From: a virus
Strand: one strand, 5' to 3'
Length of the DNA stretch: 32,378 nucleotides
Virus record (IMG/VR): IMGVR_UViG_3300037584_005224
Location: 1-32,378 of that record
The notes under the pieces were generated by a model. The model was not told the DNA's origin. It made no database searches and was given only the letters and a program-made list of their open reading frames with translations. This document shows, in pieces, positions 1,239-15,229 of the stretch (the first letter of the stretch is position 1; the number at the start of each line of letters is the position of its first letter). A program made the translations under genes and the position numbers.

Positions 1239-2546
1239 ATGTCGTCAACATATTCAACGAGTTTGAGAATAGAGCTTCAAGGTTCGGGAGAGAATTCTGG
1301 AACTTGGGGAACTATTACGAACAACAATTTTTCACAATCTTTAGAATTTGCCATAGCTGGAGTAACTAATGTTGCATGCGGTGATGCTGCAGTAACAACA
1401 CTTACAAACGCTGATGGTCCGCAATCACAAGCTAATAACCAAGCAAGAAATGCTCACATAAGATTAACGGGTGCACATGGTGCAGTAAGAATAGCACAAT
1501 TCCCAGCTACTCAAAAAGTTTATTTAATTACTAACGCAACAACTGATTCAGGATCTTCAGGACCTTACGCTATGACTGTAAGACTAGGGGCTTCTGGCAA
1601 CACATTATCTATTGCAAATGGCGCTACTAGATTAGTAGCTACTGATGGCACAAACTGGTATGATGTTTTTGCTGCTGGTGGTCAATATGGTGGTTCTTTT
1701 TTAGCTGATGGTACAGTAGATGTTAATGGTAAAGAATTAATATTAGATGCTGATGCTGATACAAGTTTAACAGCGGACACAGATGATCAAATAGATGTTA
1801 AAATGGCAAATATAGATGTCGCTAATTTAACTACTCAAAACTCTGGTGACTTAGTTATAACTACAGCAGTTCAAGATAAAGATTTTGTTATCAAAGGAGA
1901 TGATGGCGGATCAGGTATAACTGCTTTGACTTTAGATATGTCAGATGCAGGAAAAGCTACATTTAATGGTGTAGTAGATGCTGATGCAGGTGTTACTATT
2001 GATAATATTACAATTGATGGCACAGAGATAGATTTATCATCTGGCGATTTAACTTTAGACGTTGCAGGTGATATTGTATTAGATGCGGATGGTGGAGATG
2101 TTAAAATTTCTGATGATGGTACGCATGTAGGATCTTTGACAAACTCTTCTTCTGATTTTGTAATCCAATCAATAGTTCAAGATAAAGATATTATTTTTAA
2201 AGGTGATGATAATGGGTCTACCATTACAGCCTTAACTTTGGATATGTCAGGTGCTGGTGCAGCAACATTTAATAATGACGTAACAGCTTTTTCTGATGAA
2301 AGGTTAAAAACAGATATTAAAACAATTGAAGATGCTTTAGAAAAAGTTTCTAAAATGCGTGGTGTAACTTTTAAAAGAGACGGTGTTGATGGCACAGGTG
2401 TTATCGCACAAGAAGTACAACCACATCTACCTGAAGTCATACACGATAAACAAGAGTATTTATCTGTTGCATATGGTAATATGGTTGGTATTTTAATTGA
2501 AGCAATCAAAGAGTTAAAAACAAAAGTAGATAAAATAGGAGGTTAA
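1239..2546 (+). CDS. Tail fibre/spike with C-terminal S74 peptidase (intramolecular chaperone)
   Basis: This 435-residue protein ends in a self-cleaving intramolecular chaperone (ICA, peptidase S74) domain, which assists trimerisation of phage fibres and then cuts itself off. The Ser-Lys dyad motif SDERLK is present (Ser352, Lys357), followed by GVIAQEVQPHLPEVI and a C-terminal helix. Cleavage before Ser352 would leave a mature fibre of about 351 residues. The N-terminal 100 residues probably attach to the virion, and residues 150-345 are Asp/Thr/Gly-rich beta repeats. An AGGAG lies just upstream of the ATG. It sits between the repetitive structural gene and a glycine-rich adhesin-like gene, consistent with the receptor-binding module. 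Confidence 0.88.
   Translation: MSSTYSTSLRIELQGSGENSGTWGTITNNNFSQSLEFAIAGVTNVACGDAAVTTLTNADGPQSQANNQARNAHIRLTGAHGAVRIAQFPATQKVYLITNATTDSGSSGPYAMTVRLGASGNTLSIANGATRLVATDGTNWYDVFAAGGQYGGSFLADGTVDVNGKELILDADADTSLTADTDDQIDVKMANIDVANLTTQNSGDLVITTAVQDKDFVIKGDDGGSGITALTLDMSDAGKATFNGVVDADAGVTIDNITIDGTEIDLSSGDLTLDVAGDIVLDADGGDVKISDDGTHVGSLTNSSSDFVIQSIVQDKDIIFKGDDNGSTITALTLDMSGAGAATFNNDVTAFSDERLKTDIKTIEDALEKVSKMRGVTFKRDGVDGTGVIAQEVQPHLPEVIHDKQEYLSVAYGNMVGILIEAIKELKTKVDKIGG
1851..2273 (+). repeat. Duplicated 39-residue module in the S74 fibre
   Basis: Positions 1851-1967 and 2157-2273 encode two 39-residue units that share VQDKD, KGDD, ITALTLDMS and ATFN at matching positions. They sit in the beta-repeat shaft just before the chaperone domain and look like a tandemly expandable fibre module. 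Confidence 0.75.
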
Positions 2547-2548
2547 AC

Positions 2549-3523
2549 GTGTCAATACCAACGTCAGGTGCTTTAACGTTTACTGCTCTTCAAACAGAGT
2601 TTGGTGGAACAAGCCCTATAGGTTTAAGTGAATATTATGCAGGGGGAGGTTTAGTTCCAGCTACAGCTTCTGGAACAAATGGAGCAGTGCCTTCATCTGG
2701 AGCATTAGCAATGTCAAAATTTTATGGCACAGAAAATGTCGTATTTATGGCAGCTACTGGTGGTACTACATCTACCTCTGGTGATTTTAAATTTCATACA
2801 TTTACAAGCAACGGAACTTTTACAATAACAACCGCAGGCAACCAAGGGTATAACTACATAGTTGTAGCTGGAGGAGGCGGTGGAGGTAGTTGTGGCGGAT
2901 CAAATTCAGGTGCTGGTGGTGGCGGAGCTGGTGGTATGCTAGTTGTGACTAATAATTCACCAACCACTGGAGGAGCGGCTATCACAATAGGTGGTGGCGG
3001 ATCTGGAGCTCCAACCGTAGAGACAACTCCAGGCAGTTCAGGAAGCAACTCAACTTTTGCAACAGGATCATTAAACGCAGTAGGTGGTGGTTTTGGTTGT
3101 CCTCACCCACCTCACGCAAGTGGTGGTGGTAGTGGCGGTTCTGGAGGCGGCGGCGGAAATAACGGCGGCGGTGGAAATAACGGCGGCGGATCTGGAACGG
3201 CTGATCAAGGTAACTCAGGTGGTCCTGGAACTTCAGGTTTTGGCGGCGGCGGTGGAGGAAAAGGCGAAGCTGGTAATACTGATGGTAATGGTGCAGGTGG
3301 CGATGGTCAATCTTGGGATGATAGTACAACTTATGCTGGTGGTGGCGGTAGTAGATCTCAGGGCGGAGGAACTGGCGGCGGCGGTAATGGCGGAAACAGC
3401 AACGCAGCTCAAAGCGCTTCATCTAATACTGGCGGTGGCGGTGGCGGCTGTGGAGGCAATTCACCTCACGGCGGCGGTAATGGTGGATCAGGTATCGTTA
3501 AAATTAGATATAAGGTTTCATAA
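2549..3523 (+). CDS. Glycine-rich tail fibre/adhesin-like protein
   Basis: Starts at GTG behind a perfect AGGAGG (2537-2542, 6-base spacer) that lies inside the end of the previous gene, giving strong coupling. The 324-residue protein has an N-terminal head domain (about residues 1-65), a beta segment with HTFTSNGTFTITTAG near residue 90, then about 200 residues dominated by Gly with Asn and Ser, including GGGGGNNGGGGNNGGG. Glycine-rich tracts of this kind form polyglycine sheets in some phage adhesins (for example S16 gp38). Its position after the S74 fibre fits receptor binding. The tract is visibly GC-richer than its neighbours because of GGC/GGT codons. Function is inferred. Confidence 0.75.
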   Translation: MSIPTSGALTFTALQTEFGGTSPIGLSEYYAGGGLVPATASGTNGAVPSSGALAMSKFYGTENVVFMAATGGTTSTSGDFKFHTFTSNGTFTITTAGNQGYNYIVVAGGGGGGSCGGSNSGAGGGGAGGMLVVTNNSPTTGGAAITIGGGGSGAPTVETTPGSSGSNSTFATGSLNAVGGGFGCPHPPHASGGGSGGSGGGGGNNGGGGNNGGGSGTADQGNSGGPGTSGFGGGGGGKGEAGNTDGNGAGGDGQSWDDSTTYAGGGGSRSQGGGTGGGGNGGNSNAAQSASSNTGGGGGGCGGNSPHGGGNGGSGIVKIRYKVS

Positions 3524-4026
3524 TGGCTCATTTTGCAAAACTTGATAGTAATAATATTGTTTTAGCTGTTGAAGTGATTGATAATAAAATTTTAGATCCT
3601 AATAACACAGGAACAGAAACTGAAGAATTAGGCAGACAATGGTTAGAGGATTTTTCTGGACATGCTAATTGGAAACAAACTTCATTTAATACTGGAGGCA
3701 ATACACATGCTTTAGGAGGAACTCCTTTTAGAAAAAATTATGCAAAAGTTGGTGGTACTTATGATGCTGCAAGAGACGCATTTATTCAACCGACCACAGG
3801 TGTTTATCCTCACTTTGCTAGTTGGGTTTTAAATGAAACAACATGTTTATACGAGGCACCAAAAACACAACCAACAGACGCACAAAGAGTTGAACCTACA
3901 TCTGATGCTAGATCTTTAACTGTTTTTTGGAATGAAGAAACTTTAGAATGGAGAGCAACCCCTATAGGAGAAAGTTCCCCTGTTTACAAATTTGACTCTA
4001 CTAATAAAACTTGGTCAGCTGTTTAA
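3523..4026 (+). CDS. Tail-associated marine phage conserved protein
   Basis: This 167-residue protein starts MAHFAKLDSNNIVLAVEVID and has conserved-looking segments FRKNYAKVGGTYDAARDAFI and FASWVLNETTCLYEAP. I recognise this architecture as a small protein commonly found beside tail fibre genes in marine cyanophages and related phages, where its function is unknown. Its start overlaps the previous stop (TAATG). Its stop shares the palindromic TTAA at 4023-4026 with the stop of the convergent minus-strand gene. A tail-fibre accessory or assembly role is inference from position only. Confidence 0.75.
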   Translation: MAHFAKLDSNNIVLAVEVIDNKILDPNNTGTETEELGRQWLEDFSGHANWKQTSFNTGGNTHALGGTPFRKNYAKVGGTYDAARDAFIQPTTGVYPHFASWVLNETTCLYEAPKTQPTDAQRVEPTSDARSLTVFWNEETLEWRATPIGESSPVYKFDSTNKTWSAV

Positions 4027-4346
4027 TTTTTAAGAGTAAAAACAATATCAGTATAATTTTTTGAAAGTATCAAAGACTCTTGTAATATTGCAAATATATT
4101 TTTATTAGTTTCATTTTTAATTTCTGCGCTTTCAGCTGTTAAATCAATTAAGTGTCTAGACCAATCTTTAGTTAAATGTTTTTCATCATTTGTAAAAACT
4201 TCTATTTTTCCGTTAGAAACGTAAGCGGAGGATTTTGGTAATATGCATATCGATTTTATGTGTCCGTAGTGAACTAAACAATTAGGAATATTTATTTTTT
4301 TATAACTTAATTTTTTTAAAAAATTTAACAAATCAATATTTTTCAT
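4023..4346 (-). CDS. Hypothetical protein, last gene of the accessory operon
   Basis: This 107-residue Lys/Ile/Asn-rich protein has no recognised motif. It contains a short hydrophobic core around VHYGHIKSICILPKSSAYVS that looks beta-structured, and no signal peptide. The ATG overlaps the stop of the upstream oxygenase (ATGA) with no clear Shine-Dalgarno, implying translation by coupling. Very AT-rich. Its stop overlaps that of the convergent tail gene. Confidence 0.65.
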   Translation of the reverse strand: MKNIDLLNFLKKLSYKKINIPNCLVHYGHIKSICILPKSSAYVSNGKIEVFTNDEKHLTKDWSRHLIDLTAESAEIKNETNKNIFAILQESLILSKNYTDIVFTLKN

Positions 4347-5032
4347 AATTTTAATTTAGTAGTAAACGTATTATTTATATCCCCCTTTACAAACGTATTA
4401 AACGCCAAAGATATTCTCTCATCATTATCATTAAATTTTGGCACTTCATGTTCTATATTAGATGAAAATAGGACTAATTGTTTTTTTACTACATTAATAG
4501 AGTGTAAGCTTGAGTTGTAATTGTTAAAAGATTGCGGTTCAATTCTTAAATATGGTGCATTTGGTTTGTCTTTATAAAATGTTATTTTGTCATTTTTTAT
4601 TGTATTAAAATAAAAAACTCCACTTACAATGCTGTTTGCATGATTGTGTATATGATGATATTTACCCTCTGTCGTTTTATTTAGCCATGATTCAGTAATA
4701 TAAATATTAACATTGTTTTTTGGTACAAAAACATTTTTAAAATAATCTATTAAAGAATTATTAATAAAGTTTTTAACATTTGTTAAAGCAAGATTTTCTA
4801 GCACATTATTGTTATTAGAAATTAAATTGGAATGATTTTTATTATATGTTGCACTGTTAATAAAATCTTTTTCAATTTGTGTAAATGAGTTTTCATATTT
4901 GTAAATACCTATTGGATCAGCAAATAAAATCTTTATTTTTTCAAATTTGTTTTCTTTATCGTGTAAAGAATTAGAAATGTCATTTAATTTAATATTTAAT
5001 TGATCATAATGATCAAAAAGATTTTTTTTCAT
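4343..5032 (-). CDS. Putative Fe(II)/2OG-dependent oxygenase (PF13759-like)
   Basis: The 229-residue protein carries the pattern of the putative 2OG-Fe(II) oxygenase family PF13759. A His-rich metal site HHIHNHANS (His129 and His131) is followed by SGVFYF, then a distal His195 in EHEVP and Arg206 in DERISLAFN, the usual position of the 2OG-carboxylate-binding arginine. Such enzymes use Fe(II), O2 and 2-oxoglutarate to hydroxylate or otherwise oxidise a substrate; the substrate here is unknown. The N-terminal 100 residues are Asn/Lys-rich and helical. The start overlaps the previous stop (ATGA). Visibly AT-richer than the structural genes, suggesting a different origin. Confidence 0.78.
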   Translation of the reverse strand: MKKNLFDHYDQLNIKLNDISNSLHDKENKFEKIKILFADPIGIYKYENSFTQIEKDFINSATYNKNHSNLISNNNNVLENLALTNVKNFINNSLIDYFKNVFVPKNNVNIYITESWLNKTTEGKYHHIHNHANSIVSGVFYFNTIKNDKITFYKDKPNAPYLRIEPQSFNNYNSSLHSINVVKKQLVLFSSNIEHEVPKFNDNDERISLAFNTFVKGDINNTFTTKLKL

Positions 5033-5664
5033 TTCAAGTATACGTTAAATGATAATGATCTTCTTTCAACATTTTGTGTTCTAAAAGGATATACAGTATG
5101 AGGCACCCAGGAAGGAAAAAGAAAAAAATCTCCTACTTGTGGTAAATATTCAAACTTATATAAACTCAAATTACTAGGTTGATTACAAAACCAACTTATT
5201 CTAGCCGCACTAGGGTAGTGATCCTCTTTAGACATTTCTTCTGAAAGGTCAGGCATTCTTAAATAACAAACACCAGACAATATGCCATCATGTAAATGTG
5301 AAGGGTTAAAGTCTCCAGCCCATTGTGATACTACCCAAGCTGCAGTCATAGTTATGTGTTCATAAGGCTGCTTACCATCTGCAAAACACGCTTGTACTTG
5401 TGGGTCTTCAAGATATTTTTTTACTTGATTAGCAAGGTATAAAGTAAAAGGTTGTGCTTGTTCACTATTAAGCCAGTTATCTGGCATTCTACATTCTTTT
5501 TTTACATTACCCGCTAGGTTGTGTGACCAATCTAATTTTTTTGACAACTCCTTACTGTCTAAAACCTCAGATGCCGTGTCATCTAATAATTTTACAATAT
5601 CTGATGACAAAGATCCTTTCATCATGGACGGACCAAAAGGTCTAAATATTATACTTTCATTCAT
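5029..5664 (-). CDS. Putative Fe(II)/2OG-dependent oxygenase, paralogue of the gene at 13400-14062
   Basis: This 211-residue protein contains WVVSQWAGDFNP followed by SHLHDG (His123, His125), then SGVCYLRMP, FPSWVPHTVYPFR (distal His189) and ERRSLSFN (Arg201/202). This is the double-stranded beta-helix iron and 2OG site of the PF13759-type oxygenases. The gene at 13400-14062 shares the same landmarks in order, including RPFGP at the N-terminus, LAGNV, WVVSQWAGDFNP and KEDHYP, so the two are duplicates. A strong AAGGAG precedes the ATG, which overlaps the upstream stop (ATGA). Substrate unknown. Confidence 0.85.
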   Translation of the reverse strand: MNESIIFRPFGPSMMKGSLSSDIVKLLDDTASEVLDSKELSKKLDWSHNLAGNVKKECRMPDNWLNSEQAQPFTLYLANQVKKYLEDPQVQACFADGKQPYEHITMTAAWVVSQWAGDFNPSHLHDGILSGVCYLRMPDLSEEMSKEDHYPSAARISWFCNQPSNLSLYKFEYLPQVGDFFLFPSWVPHTVYPFRTQNVERRSLSFNVYLK

Positions 5665-6350
5665 ACTGTTCTCCTTAATTCATTTACTGGGTGATAAGGC
5701 GCATATACTTTGTAAAAAAAAGTAATTAAAGTTAATCTATACGTATTATCTGTTACATTTAAGTCAGCCTTGTGTGGATTTGATCCATCAAAAGCTAAGA
5801 TTGAATTAAATTTATTTTTAAACAATGCTATTTCTTCATAGTAAGATCTGTTTTTTTCTAGATATTCATCGTATTTTTCATCGTTTTGTTTTGTAATGTT
5901 AAAATCTTTTGATATTTTAGCTTCCTCTATAGCAGTCTTGTTATCAAAATATTCTTTTCCTTTTATTCTATATAAAGACGTGCCACCTGTATTTTCATGA
6001 TCAGTTAAATATATTATTGCAGTCAGAGGTGTTTGATCTACATGTATCCAACCTTTATTCAAAATACTGCCATCCGCACTTTTAACATCTTTTGGCCTTA
6101 TTAATTGAAAAAAAGAAGACGCCCACCATCTAAATGATTCGTCTGACTTTGTAGTTTCTGATCCATAAATTAAACTCATAATTCTATTTTGAACATAGTT
6201 GTTTAATTCATCATTAAATGTATGTAAGGCAGCCGTTCTACCTCCTGGATAATTTCTATCAGAAAAATCGTATTTACACGACAATCCTAATTCTTTTATC
6301 TTATGCGGTTCTTCAAAAAATTTATCTAAAAAGTAAGTAGGATAATACAT
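5661..6350 (-). CDS. 2OG-Fe(II) oxygenase-like protein (DUF6445-like)
   Basis: The 229-residue protein has a canonical-looking HxD in GWIHVDQTP (His103, Asp105), a beta strand AIIYLTD, a distal His in GSNPHKADL (His193) and Arg205 in YRLTLITFF, matching the iron-ligand and 2OG-arginine layout. The arrangement resembles the DUF6445 branch of oxygenase-like proteins found in phages and marine bacteria; that family name is from memory and less certain than the fold. An AAAGG lies before the ATG, which directly abuts the stop of the upstream gene. Fourth oxygenase-like gene from the distal end of this operon's coupled series would be expected to act on the same pathway, but its substrate is unknown. 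Confidence 0.75.
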   Translation of the reverse strand: MYYPTYFLDKFFEEPHKIKELGLSCKYDFSDRNYPGGRTAALHTFNDELNNYVQNRIMSLIYGSETTKSDESFRWWASSFFQLIRPKDVKSADGSILNKGWIHVDQTPLTAIIYLTDHENTGGTSLYRIKGKEYFDNKTAIEEAKISKDFNITKQNDEKYDEYLEKNRSYYEEIALFKNKFNSILAFDGSNPHKADLNVTDNTYRLTLITFFYKVYAPYHPVNELRRTV

Positions 6351-7037
6351 CTAACCTTTTTTTCTTAAAGGGACAAAATCTATGTGAAACATAGAGAGAT
6401 AATAATCTATATCACCTTTGACTAAATCAGGTAATGTAGGCAATTGTTCTTTAAATTTGTTGTAAGTTTCTTCAACATCTTTGCCTTGATTGTGTTCAAG
6501 TGTTAATAAATACTCTAAAGGCCAAAACCACAACACTTTATGATCTACAAAATGAATATCATTTTTTATCATGTTGATAAAATCTTGTTGTTCCATTTCA
6601 AAGGGCTCTCTATTTCGATAACAATCAAGCAATAAAACATCACAAGAAGATCCAAACATAAATGAATTACTTTCTATTGTGTTAATTTTTTTGTGTAATT
6701 TATTATTATGACTTTCATGATACATAAATATATCTTCATATAAGTCTGCAACAGTGACTTTTTTTACGTGCGATTTATGAACAAGCCAATTTGGTAATGT
6801 TCCTAAATTATATCCGTAAACATTTACATCCCCGTACGCTAAATCAGCCATAGCCATATTTTGAAAACAATTAAAATAAGTAGGGTTTACAGTTCTAGCC
6901 TCTTTACCGTCTATTCTTAAAATCCAATTTAAAGTTTTCTTCTCTTGTAATATCTCAATCTTTCCTGATTTATATTTTTTAAAATTTGGAACTTCAAAAT
7001 CAAACTTTTGTAACAATTTTAAATATTTATTTTTCAT
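6351..7037 (-). CDS. Possible SAM-dependent methyltransferase-fold protein
   Basis: The 228-residue protein shows a plausible Rossmann-type order: a strand and glycine-containing loop VNVYGYNLGTLPNWL (residues 72-86), a second strand with an acidic tip VKKVTVADLYEDIF (91-104), and CDVLLLDCY (132-140) resembling motif IV. This resembles spermidine-synthase-like methyltransferases, but the usual GxGxG is not intact, so the call rests on fold-like pattern only. It overlaps the upstream gene by 11 bases and abuts the downstream oxygenase gene. If real, it would pair methyl transfer with oxidation in the same operon. It could instead be an inactive Rossmann protein. Confidence 0.45.
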   Translation of the reverse strand: MKNKYLKLLQKFDFEVPNFKKYKSGKIEILQEKKTLNWILRIDGKEARTVNPTYFNCFQNMAMADLAYGDVNVYGYNLGTLPNWLVHKSHVKKVTVADLYEDIFMYHESHNNKLHKKINTIESNSFMFGSSCDVLLLDCYRNREPFEMEQQDFINMIKNDIHFVDHKVLWFWPLEYLLTLEHNQGKDVEETYNKFKEQLPTLPDLVKGDIDYYLSMFHIDFVPLRKKG

Positions 7038-7524
7038 TTATTTTCACCACACATATAGATTTTTGGTTTTTAGTATCATTATTTTCATTCGCATAAAAGC
7101 CTAAAAAGTTTACATCTAAACCATTATTAGTTGATAATGAGTCTAAAGAAACATGGCTAATTCCTGTTTCTACATCTCCAAATAAACTAATTAAATTAAA
7201 ATTTTTCCATAAATCATTTTTTTGTAGATTACCATTTTCTCTAACTAAAAAAATTCTATTTTTTAAATCTGTTACTATAAAAGCGGTGGCTTCCTTATTA
7301 TTACCATAATACATATTAGAAAAAATTAAATCATCCTGATAGAAACAACCTTGAAATATTCCATAAATTTCTTCTTTATCTTGTCTTCTTTTGATTTTAT
7401 TCTCTAGTTTACTCACTGGATCTCCGTGAAATATAACATTGTCACTACAAATTTTAATCTCTGTTTTTTCATTTATATTTTTATTTACTCCTATTTTTGG
7501 ATAAGGTTTTAAACCAAAATTCAT
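7027..7524 (-). CDS. Hypothetical protein in the oxygenase operon
   Basis: This 165-residue, AT-rich gene gives a mostly beta-predicted protein with segments EEIYGIFQGCFYQDDLIFS and KEATAFIVTDLKNRIFLV. No catalytic motif, signal peptide or membrane segment is evident. The ATG overlaps the stop of the preceding small gene (ATGA), and its 3' end overlaps the methyltransferase-like gene by 11 bases. Co-translation suggests a shared function with the neighbouring oxygenases. Confidence 0.65.
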   Translation of the reverse strand: MNFGLKPYPKIGVNKNINEKTEIKICSDNVIFHGDPVSKLENKIKRRQDKEEIYGIFQGCFYQDDLIFSNMYYGNNKEATAFIVTDLKNRIFLVRENGNLQKNDLWKNFNLISLFGDVETGISHVSLDSLSTNNGLDVNFLGFYANENNDTKNQKSICVVKINEK

Positions 7525-7700
7525 GTTATAGTTTCCTGAAAATTGTATTGAGTTTTAATTATTTCTTTTGCTAAATTTAGATCACTTTTATTATTTTTTA
7601 TAATAAGGTTTGCTGATTTAAAAACATCATTTTTGTCTAATGTTAATTTTGTTATTTTTTCAATGTTTTCCCAAATTTGTAAATTAAAATACTCTGTCAT
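7521..7700 (-). CDS. Small hypothetical protein (59 aa)
   Basis: I chose the ATG at 7700, which overlaps the stop of the upstream oxygenase as ATGA; the frame is open upstream but that region lies within the oxygenase gene. The product starts MTEYFNLQIWENIEKITKLT and is predicted helical and charged. No family recognised. Confidence 0.6.
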   Translation of the reverse strand: MTEYFNLQIWENIEKITKLTLDKNDVFKSANLIIKNNKSDLNLAKEIIKTQYNFQETIT

Positions 7701-8326
7701 TTCCACATAGGTCCTACAACCCAACCAACTAAACTTTTACGTAAACCTCTAGTAACTTTTGATACTCGGTGTCTCGTCCTAGAATCAAAAAAAACTAAAG
7801 TGCCTTTTGTGCGAGGAGCAGACATGATACCACCTAAAGGATCCTCTATTTGTAACTCACCTCCATCATATTCATCTGGATTAGTTAACTGTAATACAAA
7901 AGAAAGTTTTCTTACAAGGTCACTACTTTTAACTATGTGATCCTGAACAAGAGAATCAATATTATACGAACGATCAATTGATAAAGGTTTGTATTGTATT
8001 TCTATGCCACCATCTGAATGCCAATGATAGTAGCTCCCCTCACCATAATGAGTATATTGCATACACTCATGATCCATTCTTTGTAAATCATAATTAAAAT
8101 TTGTTCTGTTAGCTAACATTATGTAATGCCATAACAAACCTGCGCTCCAATGTGAGCTTTCAATCCAGGCATTTTTAGATTTTCTGTATTCGTGTTTTTC
8201 TTCACCTTTCTCATTTATTTTTGATGATACCAATCTGTCATCAAAATTAAGTGATAGATCCTCAGATAAAATTTCAACAAGTTGATCAGGCATTTGAGTG
8301 TTATACCAAAGTAATTGATGTGCCAT
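7697..8326 (-). CDS. 2OG-Fe(II) oxygenase, PKHD-hydroxylase-like (2OG-FeII_Oxy_3)
   Basis: This is the clearest oxygenase of the set. The 209-residue protein has YYHWHSDGG (His103, Asp105), LSFVLQLTNP and YDGGELQIEDP (151-162), FFDSRTRHRVSKV (distal His186) and GLRKSLVGWV (Arg196). The order and spacing match the prolyl-4-hydroxylase-like PKHD hydroxylases (PiuC-type), which use Fe(II) and 2OG. It is the first gene of the minus operon that runs down to 4023, with a GGAAAG about 8 bases before the ATG. It looks less AT-rich than the genes downstream of it. Close relatives are common in marine cyanophages; substrates are unresolved there too. Confidence 0.92.
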   Translation of the reverse strand: MAHQLLWYNTQMPDQLVEILSEDLSLNFDDRLVSSKINEKGEEKHEYRKSKNAWIESSHWSAGLLWHYIMLANRTNFNYDLQRMDHECMQYTHYGEGSYYHWHSDGGIEIQYKPLSIDRSYNIDSLVQDHIVKSSDLVRKLSFVLQLTNPDEYDGGELQIEDPLGGIMSAPRTKGTLVFFDSRTRHRVSKVTRGLRKSLVGWVVGPMWK

Positions 8327-8456
8327 TTTTTTTCTTTCCAGGCTTTTTTTATCATAAAAAGTTTGTCAAGAAAACAATTAAAAAATTTGTGTTGCAGACT
8401 TTAAAATTATGCTTAAATTGAGTACTCACCTAAAATTAAAAATACAGGAGAAAAAT
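8327..8456. promoter_or_regulatory. Divergent intergenic region, probable promoters for both flanking units
   Basis: This 130-base gap separates the minus-strand oxygenase operon from a plus-strand small gene, so it should carry two start signals. On the minus strand a TTGACAAACTTT (8369-8358) and a TATGAT lie close together, but their spacing (7) does not make a standard sigma-70 promoter. On the plus strand TAAAAT at 8402-8407 is a possible -10 without a good -35. No hairpin or RNA gene is evident. Confidence 0.35.
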
Positions 8457-8648
8457 ATGAAAAATGATGAAGTAAGTAAAGCTATTGCATATCTTGCAGA
8501 CAAGGTAAGTAAATATCACTCAGAACTTTTGGCAGTAAAAAGAGATCATGCAAGACATACAGAAAAATGTGGTTGTCAATCTACCCCAGGGGAAAAAGTG
8601 AATATTTCTAATAACAACAAAGATAAATTTAATTTAAACTCTACTTAG
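8457..8648 (+). CDS. Small hypothetical protein (63 aa)
   Basis: The ATG at 8457 has an AGGAG (8446-8450) six bases upstream; a longer in-frame start at 8409 has no such site, so I prefer 8457. The product starts MKNDEVSKAIAYLADKVSKY, is helical and charged, and has a CGC motif at Cys38/Cys40 with nearby His residues, followed by an Asn/Lys-rich tail. A lone plus-strand gene between two minus operons. Its stop region overlaps the convergent gene by 8 bases. Function unknown. Confidence 0.65.
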   Translation: MKNDEVSKAIAYLADKVSKYHSELLAVKRDHARHTEKCGCQSTPGEKVNISNNNKDKFNLNST

Positions 8649-8892
8649 GGGTTTGTCCTAGCATATCTTCTAAAGAGGGTGCAAATACCTTGACGTCCCT
8701 TTTAATTTTTTCAGCAGTTGTAGAAGTTCCTGGATTATCAACGTCAGCTTGAGCTGCAGCTTCAGATTCATACTCAGCACCTGTATCTATGTGTGTGATT
8801 GTTGTTTCAGTTTTTACTTTGTAGTGTGGAATTCTTCTTCCATCTTCTGTTGTAATGTGACCTAGTAATTCAGCAGGTTCAACTATCGGCAT
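8641..8892 (-). CDS. Small conserved-type phage protein (83 aa)
   Basis: Product starts MPIVEPAELLGHITTEDGRR, has a central Thr/Glu-rich segment KTETTITHIDTGAEYESEAA, and ends APSLEDMLGQTPK. GGAG lies 8 bases before the ATG, and the start overlaps the end of the upstream oxygenase gene by 14 bases. The style matches small proteins encoded among tail genes of marine phages. No catalytic motif; function unknown. Confidence 0.7.
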   Translation of the reverse strand: MPIVEPAELLGHITTEDGRRIPHYKVKTETTITHIDTGAEYESEAAAQADVDNPGTSTTAEKIKRDVKVFAPSLEDMLGQTPK

Positions 8893-9834: not shown

Positions 9835-9994
9835 GGAAAAAAGCCTCCGACTCTGACTCGTCTTTTAAATCTTGTTGGTAGTTTGTATTAAGTAAAAAAA
9901 TAATTTGATCTAGTAATGAAACCATTTGATCAAACTGATTGGGACTATACTCTTCTGTAGCATTTGGTAATCGTGTAATTGTTATCTTAGCCAT
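9827..9994 (-). CDS. Small conserved-type protein (55 aa), too short for routine ORF calling
   Basis: An ATG at 9994 overlaps the stop of the tail hub gene by one base (TAATG), and the frame closes at 9827 inside the first codons of the next gene. The product is MAKITITRLPNATEEYSPNQ followed by FDQMVSLLDQIIFLLNTNYQ and an acidic end. It fills exactly the gap between two tail-type genes with overlaps on both sides, which supports it as real. Probably a small virion-associated protein; function unknown. Confidence 0.75.
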   Translation of the reverse strand: MAKITITRLPNATEEYSPNQFDQMVSLLDQIIFLLNTNYQQDLKDESESEAFFLG

Positions 9995-11838
9995 TATCTT
10001 CTTCCGTCTGGTCTAAGTTGTAACTTTGTAGACCCAAGTCTCCAAGCTGTGTCATTAACTGTGTTGGTTTCATATTTGATTTTAACCGCTCTACCTCTAC
10101 CTCTTACATCAATTTTTTCTGTAGTGCTAGTAATACTCCCTGTTGTAGTTACGTTGGATGCAGATTGTGGATACTGTTCTAATGTTAAAGTAGCTGTCAT
10201 TGTGTTAGCCAAATTATCAAAGTCAGGAACTAACCTACTAACTGACATGAGCTCATCACCATCAGCAATTTCAACAGATCCAGTTGTTAAAAAAGCAGAT
10301 AAAGCCGTGCCATCTGCTTTATTATTACCTGTTTCGTGTTCATAAACATACGAAGCACCTGCAGTTAAACCAAGTATTGTAGAGTTGTTAGCAGATAAAC
10401 TAGCGTTATATTCAGTAGCAATAGGTAATTCAAACACATAGGCTCCTAACCAAGTAGTTCTTCCAAGAGACGTGGTATACCAAGTATTTTCTAAATAATT
10501 GTAAGCTACAGCTCTGTCTATTTGTGTAGCATTTGATGAAGGATAATACCAAATTATTTCATTAAAAGCTGTGTTAATACCACAAGCTATATCAGCTTTA
10601 TTTGTGTAACTTAAATCATCAAACACATAGTCTTGTACAGAACATGGCATTTTTTTAACAACACCATCGTACATATAAAATGAATCATCTGACATCCAAT
10701 AAGAACGGCCATTTATTTCTATTGCTGCGTGCTGTGCTATTAAACCACAGTTTGCACCAAGTTGTCTTAGACCAAAAGTAAAAGGTGTACCAACAAACTG
10801 CACACCGTGTAATGATGTGTCCGTCCAAACTAATATTTGACCTGACGATTTTACAGCACCAATTATTCTTGAACCATCCGATATACGTAGCGAACCAGCT
10901 TCATTTGTTGATACGGGTGTATAATCAGTAGCATCTTCTCTGTCAGAAAATCTAAATAATAAATCATCTTGAGTAGCACTATTACCAACAGTTGTTTCGG
11001 TACCAAAAAGAAGTAAATGTCTTGTATCAGTAGATACTAAACTAAATCTAGATGCAGTAGGAGCATTTGATAAAGTTGTCGCTCTATTACTTGTTCCTCC
11101 TGATGTATCCCAAACAAACGTTCCACCATTTAAAACAGTAGCAATTAAATCTTCACCAAAATTATCTAAAGACCAGTTTCTTGCATCTACTACAACACTA
11201 GAAGATGATCTTGGTGTGTTCCATGTGCTAGTGTTCCAAGTTAATGTGCCCCAACCATATCCATATGTAGAAGTAGAAGGACCAACACTTATTTGATACT
11301 TAGCATTTCCTGATCCACCACCCCCTGATGTTGATCCAGAGGCTGTGCTTGTATGAGTTACTGTATAAGTGCTAGAAGAGGGAACTGTAATAATTTCAAA
11401 CTCGTTATTCATATCTAATCCATCTATTGTAGAGAATGAATCAAATGTAACAAAGTCACCCACCTGTGCACTATGAGCTGCGTCCGTAACAGTAACAGTT
11501 GTTGTACCATTTGTTGTAAAAGGATTTGTTAAAGAATCAGTAGCTCTAATAGGTGTAATATCGTAAATAGCACCTTCGGAATATAAATAAAGTTTTCTAT
11601 CAGTGCCTAAAGCAAGGTATCTGGTTCCGTCTAAACCAATCCAGCTATGCGTATCACGGACCACGCCCACAATAGTTTTATTAGGATTTGGTAGATATTG
11701 CCAACCTTGCCATCTTTCAGGTTTACCATAGTGAAATCTAACAAAATCAGAATCAACATACTTACGTTGATCTCCTGCTGCATAAGCAGTATCTTGTTTA
11801 TCTATACCTGGTTGAAACTTTAAATCGACTAATTTCAT
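9994..11838 (-). CDS. Tail hub/stabilisation protein, P22 gp10-like candidate
   Basis: I place the start at ATG 11838 (614 residues, MKLVDLKFQPGIDKQDTAYA), because the open frame upstream runs into the glycosyltransferase gene and has no phage-like sequence. The protein is a long run of beta repeats with Trp/Gly/Tyr-rich blades (for example DTHSWIGLDGTRYLALGTD, ISDGSRIIGAVKSSGQILVW, EINGRSYWMSDDSFYMYDG). This layout resembles the beta-propeller tail-accessory proteins of podoviruses such as P22 gp10, which plug the packaged DNA. Residues 165-190 hold a Ser/Gly linker. It sits with small structural genes in a minus-strand tail block. The gp10 link is by pattern, not alignment. Confidence 0.65.
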   Translation of the reverse strand: MKLVDLKFQPGIDKQDTAYAAGDQRKYVDSDFVRFHYGKPERWQGWQYLPNPNKTIVGVVRDTHSWIGLDGTRYLALGTDRKLYLYSEGAIYDITPIRATDSLTNPFTTNGTTTVTVTDAAHSAQVGDFVTFDSFSTIDGLDMNNEFEIITVPSSSTYTVTHTSTASGSTSGGGGSGNAKYQISVGPSTSTYGYGWGTLTWNTSTWNTPRSSSSVVVDARNWSLDNFGEDLIATVLNGGTFVWDTSGGTSNRATTLSNAPTASRFSLVSTDTRHLLLFGTETTVGNSATQDDLLFRFSDREDATDYTPVSTNEAGSLRISDGSRIIGAVKSSGQILVWTDTSLHGVQFVGTPFTFGLRQLGANCGLIAQHAAIEINGRSYWMSDDSFYMYDGVVKKMPCSVQDYVFDDLSYTNKADIACGINTAFNEIIWYYPSSNATQIDRAVAYNYLENTWYTTSLGRTTWLGAYVFELPIATEYNASLSANNSTILGLTAGASYVYEHETGNNKADGTALSAFLTTGSVEIADGDELMSVSRLVPDFDNLANTMTATLTLEQYPQSASNVTTTGSITSTTEKIDVRGRGRAVKIKYETNTVNDTAWRLGSTKLQLRPDGRR

Positions 11839-11854
11839 GTCGGAGTATACTAAA

Positions 11855-12637
11855 TTATTTATTGTTTTGTGGCAAGAATTGAGTGGATACTCGACCTCTG
11901 AAATTATAATTACCCGAGTGAACAAGACTACTTGCAATATCAGCGTATACTTTACCACCTATTTTCTGCCATAAACGACAAAAAGCATAATCTTCTGACA
12001 AATATCTTTTTGTTTCAGGTTCTATAACTGTGTCAAAAAAAGCATAATTCCAATCAGAAGTATTGTGATAACCGAATGTTTTATCGTGTGGATCACCTAG
12101 ATGTTGATCAGATTTAAAACGTAAGTTTGGATAAGCTAAAGCCATTTTTTTAAATACGTTTCTTTTTATTAACATAAAACCAGTAGCACCATCCAATACC
12201 TCTATAAAACCTTTTTCTACTTTTATTTTATCTGGTTCTGTAACATTTAAATTATATTGTAATGAAGCTGAATGAAGCTCTTCCTCTGATATATTTGGAT
12301 TATTTTTTACTTTTTTAATTGCTTTAGTCCAATCAATTGTTTTGCGTGGATAGACTCCTGTAACAACCTCTTTATCTAAATCCAACATGCGAAATATTGA
12401 TTCGGGATCAAAAGATATATCAGCGTCTACAAACATTAAGTGAGTATAATCACCGTCCATAAATAATTGAACTAAAGTATTACGAGCTCTTGTTACCAAA
12501 GACTCATTGCCTATTGTACCAAATTGTAATTCTACTTTTTTTGTAGCGGCTAAAGCTGCTAATTGCAAACAGCTTTTAAAATAATCTGCTGTAATCATTC
12601 CACCATAACAAGGGGTTGCTATAAAAAGTTTAATCAT
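11855..12637 (-). CDS. GT-A fold glycosyltransferase (GT2-like)
   Basis: This 260-residue protein starts MIKLFIATPCYGGMITADYF and has the landmarks of a GT-A nucleotide-sugar transferase: TRARNTLVQLF, the metal/nucleotide-binding DxD in MFVDADISF (Asp71, Asp73), an acceptor-region GATGFMLIKR (150-159), the catalytic-base-type SEDYAFCRLW (Glu215/Asp216) and a C-terminal His240. No membrane anchor is present, so it is probably cytoplasmic. AAGGA precedes the ATG, and it overlaps the upstream oxygenase gene by 8 bases. With hydroxylating oxygenases on both sides, sugar transfer onto a new hydroxyl is an attractive but unproven idea. Donor and acceptor unknown. Confidence 0.85.
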   Translation of the reverse strand: MIKLFIATPCYGGMITADYFKSCLQLAALAATKKVELQFGTIGNESLVTRARNTLVQLFMDGDYTHLMFVDADISFDPESIFRMLDLDKEVVTGVYPRKTIDWTKAIKKVKNNPNISEEELHSASLQYNLNVTEPDKIKVEKGFIEVLDGATGFMLIKRNVFKKMALAYPNLRFKSDQHLGDPHDKTFGYHNTSDWNYAFFDTVIEPETKRYLSEDYAFCRLWQKIGGKVYADIASSLVHSGNYNFRGRVSTQFLPQNNK

Positions 12638-13145
12638 TTATTTCCTTATAAAAAATATTAAGAGTATATCTGTTAGAACTGTCTCCAAAAGATTGCAAAT
12701 CTGAATGTGGTATTTTCATGCCATTAAAAAATAAAGCCCTGTTTTCTACAAAACCTATGTGTGAAGACAGTTTATTATCATGCATAAACCCTGTGCCATT
12801 ATTAAGAAGAGGCTCACCTTTTACAAATAAAAGAAAGTTAGCAACATTACCTTTATCATCATCAGTATGAAACAAAGGTTCTTTGTTATTTTCTCGCAAA
12901 TGTGCACTCACGGATATTGGTTCAAGATTTCTATGGGGGAAAAAATATTGTTTAACTAATTTAAGTAATGGATCATCATGAATACTTTTATTAAAAGTAT
13001 GACGCATACCATATAATTGACCTTCAGGATTTTTTACTTCTTGGTATTCTAATTTTTTTACAGTATCTTGAAGTGACTTTAACGTAGCCTCATCTAAAAA
13101 ATTATCAACGTACATAACAAACTCTGTATTTTTATTGTGTTGCAT
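12630..13145 (-). CDS. 2OG-Fe(II) oxygenase-like protein (HxD type)
   Basis: The 171-residue protein has LFHTDDDKG (His93, Asp95) as the HxD pair, ALFFNGMKIPHSDL (distal His147) and SSNRYTLNIFY (Arg159), the standard iron ligand and 2OG-binding order on a double-stranded beta helix. It starts MQHNKNTEFVMYVDNFLDEA, a beginning typical of prolyl-hydroxylase-like proteins. It overlaps the upstream gene by 14 bases and the glycosyltransferase gene by 8. Substrate unknown. The short length is near the minimum for the fold. Confidence 0.82.
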   Translation of the reverse strand: MQHNKNTEFVMYVDNFLDEATLKSLQDTVKKLEYQEVKNPEGQLYGMRHTFNKSIHDDPLLKLVKQYFFPHRNLEPISVSAHLRENNKEPLFHTDDDKGNVANFLLFVKGEPLLNNGTGFMHDNKLSSHIGFVENRALFFNGMKIPHSDLQSFGDSSNRYTLNIFYKEIND

Positions 13146-13407
13146 AATCTACTTTTAAATATTCTATTTTCTTTAACCAATCTTTAGGAATAGCTATTGC
13201 TCCTCCACCCGTAATGTCTTCTTTGTCTTTACTATACGAACGCATAATAATTATTTTTTCTTCACCATTATGTATCATCCATCCTACTTCTTGGCACACG
13301 GCCAACGGAGCACTTATAACTTCTTTTATATCAAGCCAACCTGTTTCTGTATCACGAGCATCTAACCACGTCACACGGACCATTGGCACTTTGTTGATGT
13401 CAATCAT
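13132..13407 (-). CDS. Small conserved-type phage protein (91 aa)
   Basis: Product MIDINKVPMVRVTWLDARDT continues with ETGWLDIKEVISAPLAVCQE and VGWMIHNGEEKIIIMRSYSK, ending in a Lys-rich helix. It reads as a compact beta-barrel-like protein of the sort repeatedly found in marine phage genomes, with no known function. It overlaps the upstream oxygenase gene by 8 bases and the downstream one by 14. A good Shine-Dalgarno is not obvious, so coupling is likely. Confidence 0.7.
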   Translation of the reverse strand: MIDINKVPMVRVTWLDARDTETGWLDIKEVISAPLAVCQEVGWMIHNGEEKIIIMRSYSKDKEDITGGGAIAIPKDWLKKIEYLKVDYATQ

Positions 13408-14062
13408 TAATAGGTTCTTTTTTCTTTAAATGTAAATTAAATGATACAGATCTTCTTTCTTCGTTAGGTGTTCTAAATGGATAGACACCATGAGATAGCC
13501 ATGACGGAAACAAATATATAGCACCTACTTTTGGAGTTGCTTGATGTTTATGTCCACTAAAAGTTGCAGCTTGACCAGCATGCCAAACAATATCACCTAC
13601 ACATGGATAATGATCTTCTTTTGCGTATTCGTCTTTAAGACTAGGTGGCACTCGTAAATAAATAACACCAGATAATTCACCTTGATGTATATGAAAAGGA
13701 TTAAAGTCTCCAGCCCACTGGCTCACGACCCACATAGATTCTATTACCATCTTACCAACAAACGCTGGAGATATAGTATCACTAGCAGGAGGAATAGATA
13801 TGTACTGTTTAACTATTTCACCTAATGCTCCTATTAAAGGTTCAAAAGTTTTACTAGCTAAATCTTCTTGAGGGTAACGAACTTCTTTTTGAACATTGCC
13901 CGCTAAATTCATAGAATGATCATATTTTTTAGACAGCTTGTCGTCATCTAACAGCTCTGTTGCCCTATCATCTAATACTTTAATTAATTGTAAAGGTAGT
14001 TTGCCTTGTAATATGGTTGGACCAAAAGGTCTAATAGCATGAAAATCTACTTTAGTTGACAT
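13400..14062 (-). CDS. 2OG-Fe(II) oxygenase, paralogue of the gene at 5029-5664
   Basis: I place the start at ATG 14062 (220 residues, MSTKVDFHAIRPFGPTILQG), with AAGAAAGGA five bases upstream; an ATG at 14095 is possible but has no such site. The active-site pattern is WVVSQWAGDFNPFHIH (His124, His126), SGVIYLRVP, FPSWLSHGVYPFR (distal His191) and ERRSVSFN (Arg203/204). It matches the gene at 5029-5664 landmark for landmark, so the window holds a duplicated oxygenase pair about 8 kb apart on the same strand. It is the first gene of the minus-strand tail/oxygenase block. Substrate unknown. Confidence 0.87.
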   Translation of the reverse strand: MSTKVDFHAIRPFGPTILQGKLPLQLIKVLDDRATELLDDDKLSKKYDHSMNLAGNVQKEVRYPQEDLASKTFEPLIGALGEIVKQYISIPPASDTISPAFVGKMVIESMWVVSQWAGDFNPFHIHQGELSGVIYLRVPPSLKDEYAKEDHYPCVGDIVWHAGQAATFSGHKHQATPKVGAIYLFPSWLSHGVYPFRTPNEERRSVSFNLHLKKKEPIND

Positions 14063-14109
14063 GGTTTCCTTTCTTTCGTAAATATCTATTGTCATATAGC
14101 AATTATTTG

Positions 14110-14200: not shown

Positions 14201-15229
14201 ATGATTGACGAACAATTTTTAGAAACAATACCTCGATATGGAATTGGTGGTTTTGTTGGTAAAATTTTTAAAAAGATAAAAAAAGCTGTTAAAAAAGTAG
14301 CTCCTATAGCTGGAGCAGGTATTGGTTTTTTACTTGGTGGTTCTGCTGGTGCAGGTATTGGTTCTGGTATTGGAAGTCTTATTGCTGGTAAATCAGTTGG
14401 AGAATCTCTTAAAAATGCAGCTCTTGGTTATGGTATTGGTTCAGTCGCAGGACGCTTTGGTCCTTTTCAAGGTTTTGCAGGTAAAGGTATTGGTGGTAAA
14501 TTTGCTTTTGGTGACAACTACAATGTCTTAAATAAATTACTTCCAAGAGTAACAGACACTACAGGTAAAATAATTACTGAGGGTGGTGGTAAATTAGATG
14601 CAAAAACATTTTTAGAAAACAAAAATATAGATCCAGCTATTTTAGAAGATCCAAAAACAGCAAGTTATGTTAATGAATTAATGCTTAAAGAATCTACAAA
14701 AGAAGTTGCAAAAAAAGCAGGCAGTGATCTTTTATCAAAAGGTTTACTTGCTTCTACTCTTGCAGCTCCAGTGTTGACTTACTTTGATGCAAAAAAAGCA
14801 GAAGAAGAATATGTACCTGGAGATCCTTATGCTTTAAATCCATTTTATTATCAAGACCCACAACAATTTCAAGTTGCAGGTATTGGTACAAAACCTTATT
14901 ACATGGAAGATATGCAAGATTATTACGGAATGCCTACATCAGATTTACCTACCGATTTTATTAGAGCAAATAAAGGTGGTATTATTCAATTGGCAGATGG
15001 ATCAGAAAAATATTTTCCTCGTAAAACAGGAAAGATTGATGGACCGGGAACTGGGACAAGTGATGACATACCAGCAATGTTAAGTGATGGAGAATTTGTC
15101 TTTACAGCAAAAGCAGTTCGTAATGCAGGTGGTGGAGATAGAAGATCAGGTGCAAAAAAAATGTATGAAATGATGAAAAACTTAGAAAAAGGTGGTACAC
15201 TTTCTGAGCAATCAAGAGGAGTGGCATAA
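14201..15229 (+). CDS. Virion-associated protein with glycine-zipper segment
   Basis: AAAGGA lies six bases before the ATG. The 342-residue protein has a basic stretch (FKKIKKAVKKVAP), then a glycine-zipper hydrophobic segment AGAGIGFLLGGSAGAGIGSG (about residues 39-58) able to insert into membranes. Its C-terminus has ANKGGIIQLADGSE and GTSDDIPAMLSDGEFVFTAK followed by AVRNAGGG, a signature I know from many marine phage structural proteins. First gene of a five-gene plus-strand set of large virion-type proteins. Possibly a DNA-ejection protein that contacts the cell envelope; the exact role is inferred. Confidence 0.72.
   Translation: MIDEQFLETIPRYGIGGFVGKIFKKIKKAVKKVAPIAGAGIGFLLGGSAGAGIGSGIGSLIAGKSVGESLKNAALGYGIGSVAGRFGPFQGFAGKGIGGKFAFGDNYNVLNKLLPRVTDTTGKIITEGGGKLDAKTFLENKNIDPAILEDPKTASYVNELMLKESTKEVAKKAGSDLLSKGLLASTLAAPVLTYFDAKKAEEEYVPGDPYALNPFYYQDPQQFQVAGIGTKPYYMEDMQDYYGMPTSDLPTDFIRANKGGIIQLADGSEKYFPRKTGKIDGPGTGTSDDIPAMLSDGEFVFTAKAVRNAGGGDRRSGAKKMYEMMKNLEKGGTLSEQSRGVA

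Follow-up and report, generated by a model that had tools for sequence, protein, structure and literature searches.

Background

Variable islands that include tail fibres have been described in marine phages. The host recognition cluster (HRC) of pelagimyophages and cyanomyophages is a hypervariable island of the structural region in which tail fibres are accompanied by enzyme genes (PMC7029224, cited here, like the other papers, from the accessible part of the text). The HRC lies between VrlC and neck gp14, has a mean length of about 45 kb and is prominent in glycosyltransferases, for which alteration of the receptor has been proposed. In metaviromic islands of marine phages, Fe(II)-dependent oxygenases were 8 of the 390 genes in variable islands with tail fibres, and a role in "host recognition" was inferred (PMC3909814); the accessible text describes no gene-content rule, fixed edge or adhesin-class association. 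In this study, a 32,378-base virus record (IMG/VR IMGVR_UViG_3300037584_005224; the whole stretch is referred to as the window) was found to carry, between a conserved backbone gene (orf83) and a tail-fibre gene with an S74 chaperone, adhesin genes together with an operon of 2-oxoglutarate-Fe(II) (2OG-Fe(II)) oxygenase-like genes. In contrast to the HRC, islands at this site measure 1–7 kb, the genome is podovirus-like, and oxygenases are abundant.

Oxygenases of this kind are common in marine phages, with 24 in one cyanophage (PMC9602691), and are usually read as genes of host metabolism (PMC4164917, PMC9602691). Pelagiphages of the HTVC023P type resemble the window in having several non-orthologous 2OG-Fe(II) oxygenases per genome, often close together (PMC9599517), with "ferrochelatase" partners (PMC11561400). 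They differ in that the accessible text of PMC9599517 treats the enzymes as auxiliary metabolic genes with a ferrochelatase partner and mentions neither an adhesin-class link nor block exchange with the adhesin. In the accessible text of these closest works, neither a dependence of island content on adhesin class nor a fixed edge was seen. A literature search, which covered few subscription journals and no preprints, found no report linking oxygenase content to adhesin class.

By PHROG matches, the window encodes tail fibres on its left side, a virion protein of stabilisation type (stab, 9994–11958), proteins of ejection type and, within a replication module, a DNA polymerase. The polymerase was 51% identical to that of Pelagibacter phage HTVC023P and 50% to that of phage DSL-LC04, and stab was 42–44% identical to its counterparts in both. 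By these matches, the window phage is a podovirus-like marine phage and a distant relative of the HTVC023P-type podoviruses. The listed start of stab looks too far upstream, most listed relatives having 614–615 amino acids.

The island site in 43 contigs

The best 80 of 243 orf83-positive contigs entered the survey. From 169 loci and the window, 57 loci spanning orf83 through the fibre gene were obtained, and taking one locus per contig gave 43 contigs, the window included. The site between orf83 with its small divergent neighbour o79 and the S74 fibre gene was a hypervariable island, with 27 gene sets in the 43 contigs. It is thus, like the HRC, a non-syntenic island with tail fibres, but its position is different, as a PHROG scan of 30 window proteins matched neither VrlC nor neck gp14.

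Three adhesin classes were distinguished. Class A (18 contigs) has a small adhesin-region protein, phr7759, and a Gly-rich protein; class B (20 contigs) has a Collar-domain protein (PF07484 in the member scanned) and a 130-amino-acid protein; class C (5 contigs) has two short proteins. Non-adhesin genes numbered 6–8 per island in class A, 3–9 in class B and 0–1 in class C, the class with the short tip. Among the 255 island genes, 101 came from families in which at least one member exceeded the cut-off of a 2OG-Fe(II) oxygenase Pfam; adding DUF6445, c1 (on motif evidence only) and c3 (on a weak match) brought the oxygenase-like total to 144. Many of the remaining families lay outside this Pfam scan; in two further scans, 8 of 20 proteins (two of the 20 being adhesin-side) were over a 2OG oxygenase cut-off.

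Some enzyme-island families followed the adhesin class. The orf107 family was present in 17 of the 18 class A contigs and in 0 of the 25 others, and families c4 and c5 were present in 20/20 class B contigs and 0/23 others. Counted per distinct gene set, the figures were 9/10 vs 0/17 for orf107 (p = 2e-6) and 15/15 vs 0/12 for c4/c5 (p = 6e-8), p values that are not corrected for relatedness. Families c1 (14 class A and 7 class B contigs) and c2 (14 and 6) were shared by both classes, showing that enzymes do pass from one slot to another. The genes orf107, c4 and c5 were sometimes not adjacent to the adhesin genes. These comparisons show the slot as a putative hypervariable host-recognition module, composed of an adhesin class and a 2OG-Fe(II)-oxygenase-like operon in which some enzyme families follow the class.

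Island content also varied within class A. Besides o79, 11 of the 18 contigs had only phr7759 and orf107 (plus a divergent Gly-rich protein) in common with the window; L109 and L163 also shared oxyA, L096 and L154 shared the MT-like gene, oxyB and oxyC, L002 shared everything, and L111 was without orf107. The cassette was absent from most relatives and thus not conserved in all of them; its MT-like gene was found in 4 of the 43 spanning contigs, window included. Seven contigs (L003, L042, L084, L087, L088, L089 and L100) were excluded from the 43 because they did not span both anchors; orf107 and phr7759 were present in 7/7. Also outside the set, L108 and L134 have orf107 and stop before the adhesin. 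In L052 (1–7515), the fibre, Gly-rich, phr7759, enzyme and stab genes are all on one strand, with no orf83, o79 or orf107; judged by its gene order, this is another arrangement of the same parts.

Exchange of the block between phages

The exchanged block has approximate edges at 2240 and 8660 and comprises the 3′ end of the S74 tail-fibre gene, the Gly-rich adhesin gene, phr7759, the oxygenase island and o79. In 400-bp steps, identity between the window and L002 was 0.725–0.84 at the left, 0.885–0.99 from about 2400 to 8800, and 0.705–0.81 thereafter. Steps of 60 bp placed the left edge at about 2240, within the 3′ end of the fibre gene, with identity of 0.62–0.80 at 2060–2239 (0.90 in the step before) and 0.90–1.00 from 2240 to about 2840. 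At the right edge, near 8660 at the o79/orf83 junction, identity fell from 0.95 to 0.80.

Third-codon-position identity to L002 was 0.79–0.98 in the eleven genes from the Gly-rich gene (2549) to o79 (8648) and 0.52–0.64 in eight comparable flanking genes, a comparison that did not include stab. At shared amino acids, the values were 0.81–0.98 in the block and 0.53–0.66 in the flanks. The block is therefore younger than the split of the two backbones. L003 carries phr7759 and all eight cassette genes (43–81% identical) on a distant backbone, whose stab is 44% identical and in opposite orientation. A probable second exchange, independent of the window, is visible between L101 and L123, which share 99.4% identity over 6.0 kb to the orf83 stop codon and then continue into different adhesin classes and islands; L123 and L122 were at least 0.996 identical across the island in 500-bp steps. 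A chimeric assembly is possible for the L101/L123 pair.

Taken together, the comparisons show an adhesin and enzyme operon that are swapped between phages as one block. A preliminary description of the window had proposed a transferred AT-rich cassette at 4023–7700, inserted next to receptor-binding genes and ending before the unlike oxygenase gene at 7697. Transfer and adjacency are borne out by the relatives, but "next to" understates the case, as the adhesin genes travel along with the cassette. The proposed end was misplaced: the unit takes in the oxygenase gene at 7697–8326, and the exchanged block is larger still.

Insertion mediated by an integrase, a tRNA or repeats was considered and rejected. 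The window proteins scanned matched no integrase family, a tRNA search of the window was negative, and no convincing repeats were seen at the block edges, the highest-copy direct repeats being Gly codons of the adhesin. Given that the window's site revealed neither an integrase family nor a tRNA or long repeat, exchange would have proceeded through homologous recombination in the conserved flanks. Promoter and terminator scans gave results at or under shuffle level.

Fixed left edge of the island

A 14-bp motif, TTGTTTTCTTGACA, lies in the gap that separates o79 from the first island gene (8364–8377 on the minus strand of the window). Exactly one copy, with no more than one mismatch, was present at this place in 43/43 contigs. 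Within the window alone, with two mismatches allowed, the motif was not above chance, and conservation is the evidence for it. In the 34 contigs with the island pointing away from o79, which do not include the window and L002, TTGTTTTCTTGACA precedes another conserved, slightly variable stretch, ATGTTATGAAAG...AAAAGAATG, behind which stand first genes of eight different families. One conserved edge in front of eight gene families indicates a leader that stays constant while the genes after it are exchanged.

Genes of the block and candidate functions

The right-hand anchor of the island (1239–2546, plus strand) encodes a tail-fibre protein with an S74 intramolecular chaperone (PF13884, E = 6.7e-15; tail-fibre PHROGs). 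It is followed on the same strand by the gene for the Gly-rich protein of class A (2549–3523; PF21722 Gly_rich_2, E = 1e-19), which is likely the receptor-binding tip on the basis of its position and composition, and by phr7759 (3523–4026; phrog_7759, E = 1.2e-32). Convergent to these, the minus-strand cassette runs in the order oxyC, orf67, orf165, MT-like gene, DUF6445 gene, oxyB, oxyA and orf107. Beyond it are o79 (plus strand; protein identity to L002 0.95; family present in 42/43 contigs) and the left-hand anchor orf83 (8641–8892, minus strand). The listed ORF (open reading frame) of o79 is 8409–8648; its start looks too far upstream, and 8457, judged from the sequence, is more likely, giving 8457–8648.

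Three cassette proteins exceeded the Pfam cut-off (27 bits) for the 2OG-Fe(II) oxygenase superfamily: oxyA (4343–5032; PF13759, E = 7.4e-19, 68.4 bits), oxyB (5029–5664; PF13759, E = 5.7e-17, 62.4 bits) and the PKHD-like oxyC (7697–8326; PF13640, E = 1.6e-14, 55.1 bits), the first gene of the island operon, which in phmmer matched the PKHD-type hydroxylase PiuC (E = 1.7e-7). The DUF6445 protein (5661–6350; PF20043, E = 4.2e-15) matched PF13640 with an E value of only 0.025 and has an HxD...H pattern. A loose HxD/E...H pattern occurred in oxyC (4/4), DUF6445 (2/2) and oxyA (2/4) and not in oxyB (0/4); it is unspecific, being present also in orf165 (2/2), c5 (7/20) and parts of a carbamoyltransferase (2/9).

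The products of orf107 (4023–4346), orf165 (7027–7524) and orf67 (7521–7724) had been described as lacking a recognisable family, and they indeed gave no Pfam match over cut-off and no convincing PHROG; the MT-like protein (6351–7037) is a fourth orphan. Homologues of orf165 and orf67 were found only in L002 and L003 among the loci compared, and a solved-structure search with three orf165 sequences gave nothing significant. The orf107 family has two forms with a mutual identity of only 24–29%, neither with a relative in phage records. An AlphaFold2 model of orf107 had a predicted local distance difference test (pLDDT) score of 82. VIA gave Z up to 5.8 (values below 8 indicate merely a common arrangement, as the tool warns), with cupins prominent among other beta folds, and the best Foldseek target was a cupin (E = 3.3e-3, TM 0.32). 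A sequence-profile search of orf107 gave no cupin match. It is predicted from the model to be a cupin-like beta protein; the invariant columns of 14 homologues contain no His at all, unlike the conserved metal-binding histidines of catalytic cupins, which makes an accessory role more likely than catalysis.

For the MT-like protein, a nucleotide- or S-adenosylmethionine-binding fold is no more than suspected. Motifs had raised the suspicion of a spermidine synthase, for which the searches gave no support: Pfam gave 0 matches in 8/8 homologues, PF01564 was not found in the window, solved-structure and fold searches were without significant match, and no significant similarity was seen to a spermidine-synthase-like protein of phage HTVC008M. 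The AlphaFold2 model was uninformative (pLDDT 48.8), and three spermidine/spermine synthase entries among 50 listed are not evidence. A search of 50,697 phage records found no relative, nor did a pattern search of a bacterial/archaeal genome collection, a method limited to fairly close relatives. A defence island was also considered and rejected, as PADLOC on 10 proteins returned only generic CRISPR-associated "2OG" models, in 2 proteins.

Several further proteins were observed. Family c1, the "ferrochelatase" of pelagiphages (phrog_2954; L022:6769-7389 (+), L102:8388-9008 (+), L187:6808-7449 (-)), has an invariant HxD and a later His in 10/10 aligned members. By this motif, c1 may be another 2OG-oxygenase-like enzyme; five members scanned had no Pfam match, and profile comparison and a solved-structure search were not significant. 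The same held for c3, for which the oxygenase case is weaker and which has the HxD...H pattern in 20/20. Among proteins annotated or matched as "DNA endonuclease V", c3 included (phrog_274; L022:8905-9471 (+), L181:6344-6832 (+), L187:26476-26958 (+), window:12630-13145 (-)), some had weak PF13640 matches (E 0.0015, 0.029) and others none; these matches and the HxD...H pattern make the name doubtful.

Class B islands contain a NodU-type carbamoyltransferase split over two ORFs (PF02543 and PF16861 parts; L067:13319-14350 and 14334-14861 (+)), a family that acts on sugars or small molecules. They also contain a DUF6065-like protein slightly below the DUF6065 family cut-off. In one further class B protein, L067:16490-17368 (+), DUF6817 (E = 1.5e-18) is fused to a 2OG-Fe(II) oxygenase domain. 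A second oxygenase-containing stretch of the window (12630–14095) lies between stab and the ejection genes; extra genes stand among its members in L017, L041, L063 and L067, and it may be a second variable site. Its oxyE resembles oxyB (66–69% nucleotide matches across L002, L003 and the window).

Related sites in other phages

Homologues of phr7759 were present in 35 phage records, some of them GenBank/RefSeq duplicates, and 16 neighbourhoods were examined. With profiles made from the island enzymes, oxygenase-like ORFs were detected within about 4 kb of phr7759 in 8 of the 16: six each in S-RSM4 and S-SSM5 (in the latter beside an annotated carbamoyltransferase), five each in S-SM1 and HTVC008M, four in 023Pt_psg01, three in HTVC033P, one in DSL-LC04, and three in HTVC023P with a fourth 5 kb further on. 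HTVC008M, a Pelagibacter phage of the Kyanoviridae, is like the window in that its oxygenase operon adjoins the phr7759 homologue and is convergent to it. In HTVC023P and HTVC033P, all oxygenase-like ORFs found (4/4 and 3/3) were in the tail-fibre/adhesin region, the search in HTVC033P covering 50 kb and not the last 3 kb.

Role of the island enzymes

The explanation favoured here is that the island enzymes modify the receptor-binding tip. They would be produced together with the virion proteins and would hydroxylate or otherwise decorate the tip, and if so each tip class would need its own modifying set. In the window, the catalysts would be oxyA, oxyB, oxyC and the DUF6445 protein, orf107 would be an accessory or substrate-presenting factor, and the MT-like protein a further tailoring enzyme. 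A probability of roughly 0.4 is assigned to this explanation as a whole. Two features favour it over a modified host receptor: the location of the genes among those of the virion, and the near absence of enzymes where the tips are shortest.

Several observations weigh against it. No oxygenase-like ORFs were found near phr7759 in the other eight neighbourhoods, those of HTVC025P, CRP-207, Melnitz-3, Greip (where the stretch extends only 420 bases on one side of phr7759), CRP-143, Bellamy, phiPsal1 and MW202674. None of the 16 neighbourhoods had a match to orf107, and the link of orf107 to the adhesin is thus confined to the window's lineage. Within that lineage, phr7759 occurs without orf107 in L111 of the set and in L052 and L126 outside it. 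The best stab tree, which covered 35 of the 43 contigs, required four class changes but offered only 2–3 independent pairs, so that significance with phylogeny taken into account is unreachable: the sign test gave p = 0.5, and a single clade was not rejected for class A (p = 0.459) or class B (p = 0.46). Metagenome assembly is able to make chimeras such as L101/L123. Physical linkage by itself could hold neighbours together, and 14 of the 19 oxygenase-like genes of HTVC008M lie away from the adhesin cluster.

Alternatively, the enzymes might alter a receptor or glycan on the host surface, so that released phages avoid rebinding to debris and competitors are excluded. A match between receptor and modification would keep the link to the adhesin, and the linkage with adhesin class is accounted for equally well. 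The carbamoyltransferase (PF02543/PF16861), present in 9/20 class B islands, fits this explanation, and the proposal made for the HRC glycosyltransferases (PMC7029224) is a precedent. However, superinfection exclusion would be expected early, whereas the island lies among virion genes; family scans recognised no membrane protein or transporter in the window's island, and in the portion of the island families that was scanned, no glycosyltransferase family turned up. Overall, action on the receptor is considered rather unlikely.

It is likewise improbable, to a similar degree, that the edge of the receptor-binding genes is simply a recombination hotspot at which general auxiliary metabolic genes, for instance of 2-oxoglutarate or nitrogen metabolism, hitchhike with the adhesin. 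This would agree with the usual interpretation of phage oxygenases (PMC4164917, PMC9602691), with the dispersed genes of HTVC008M and with the three exceptions to the orf107 link, and linkage alone yields co-transfer. Hitchhiking does not readily explain why c1 and c2 occur in both classes, yet c4, c5 and, with few exceptions, orf107 keep to one, or why every oxygenase-like ORF found in HTVC023P and HTVC033P was in the adhesin region.

Base composition and the origin of the cassette

The GC content of 4023–7700 was 0.268, the lowest of any same-size window of the record sampled every 100 bases; the next-lowest non-overlapping one had 0.303, and the whole record 0.333. The eight cassette genes had a mean GC of 0.271 vs 0.345 for the 26 other listed genes (p = 0.0008). 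Their proteins are of unusual make-up, as had been described, with a Phe/Tyr/Met/Ile/Asn/Lys content of 0.396 vs 0.293 (p = 0.007). The AT-richness is uneven: the genes at 4023, 4343, 7027 and 7521 were the most extreme (GC 0.22–0.24), whereas the oxygenase genes at 5029–5664 (0.347) and 7697–8326 (0.343) matched their neighbours. The GC dip reported in the preliminary description is thus real without being uniform. Codon usage did not differ, GC at third codon positions being 0.184 in cassette genes vs 0.182 in the others (p = 0.83).

With third positions equal and the gap located in codon positions 1 and 2, the signal is one of amino-acid composition and not of codon usage. Island enzyme genes in the 43 contigs had mean GC values of 0.274, 0.280 and 0.277 in classes A, B and C (three genes only in class C), and third-position GC near the backbone value regardless of product. 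Normal third positions and equally AT-rich alternative islands mean that composition gives no proof of a foreign donor; transfer of the cassette stands on the comparison of relatives, and the argument from composition fails. The low GC is a property of these small soluble proteins, whose genes adjoin structural ones rich in Gly/Ala, and is no sign of a donor. Recent import of a foreign cassette from a donor of different base composition, which would agree with the low GC and the patchy distribution, is therefore very improbable, and no donor was seen for the MT-like gene (phage records and genome collection) or the orf107 forms (phage records). Equally remote is that the mosaic pattern is an assembly artefact: L002 and L003, the relatives with the window's island, are IMG/VR contigs in which chimeras at conserved genes are possible, but the same kind of arrangement occurs in the complete isolate genomes HTVC008M, HTVC023P, HTVC033P and S-SM1, and the block itself has diverged between L002 and the window (0.79–0.98 at third positions), as have the backbones, so it is not a copy of one read set.

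Implications for marine phages

Modification of the tip may extend beyond this lineage: somewhat more tentatively than for the window itself, it is proposed that marine phages carry swappable "tip-tailoring" islands, in which each enzyme set suits one tip class and the two change hands together. Island content that follows the adhesin class, at a site whose edges are fixed, suggests that the oxygenase island serves host attachment. If tip tailoring is correct, many of the numerous phage oxygenases that lack an explanation would share one role, and for these phages to change host range would mean replacing the tip along with its modifying enzymes.

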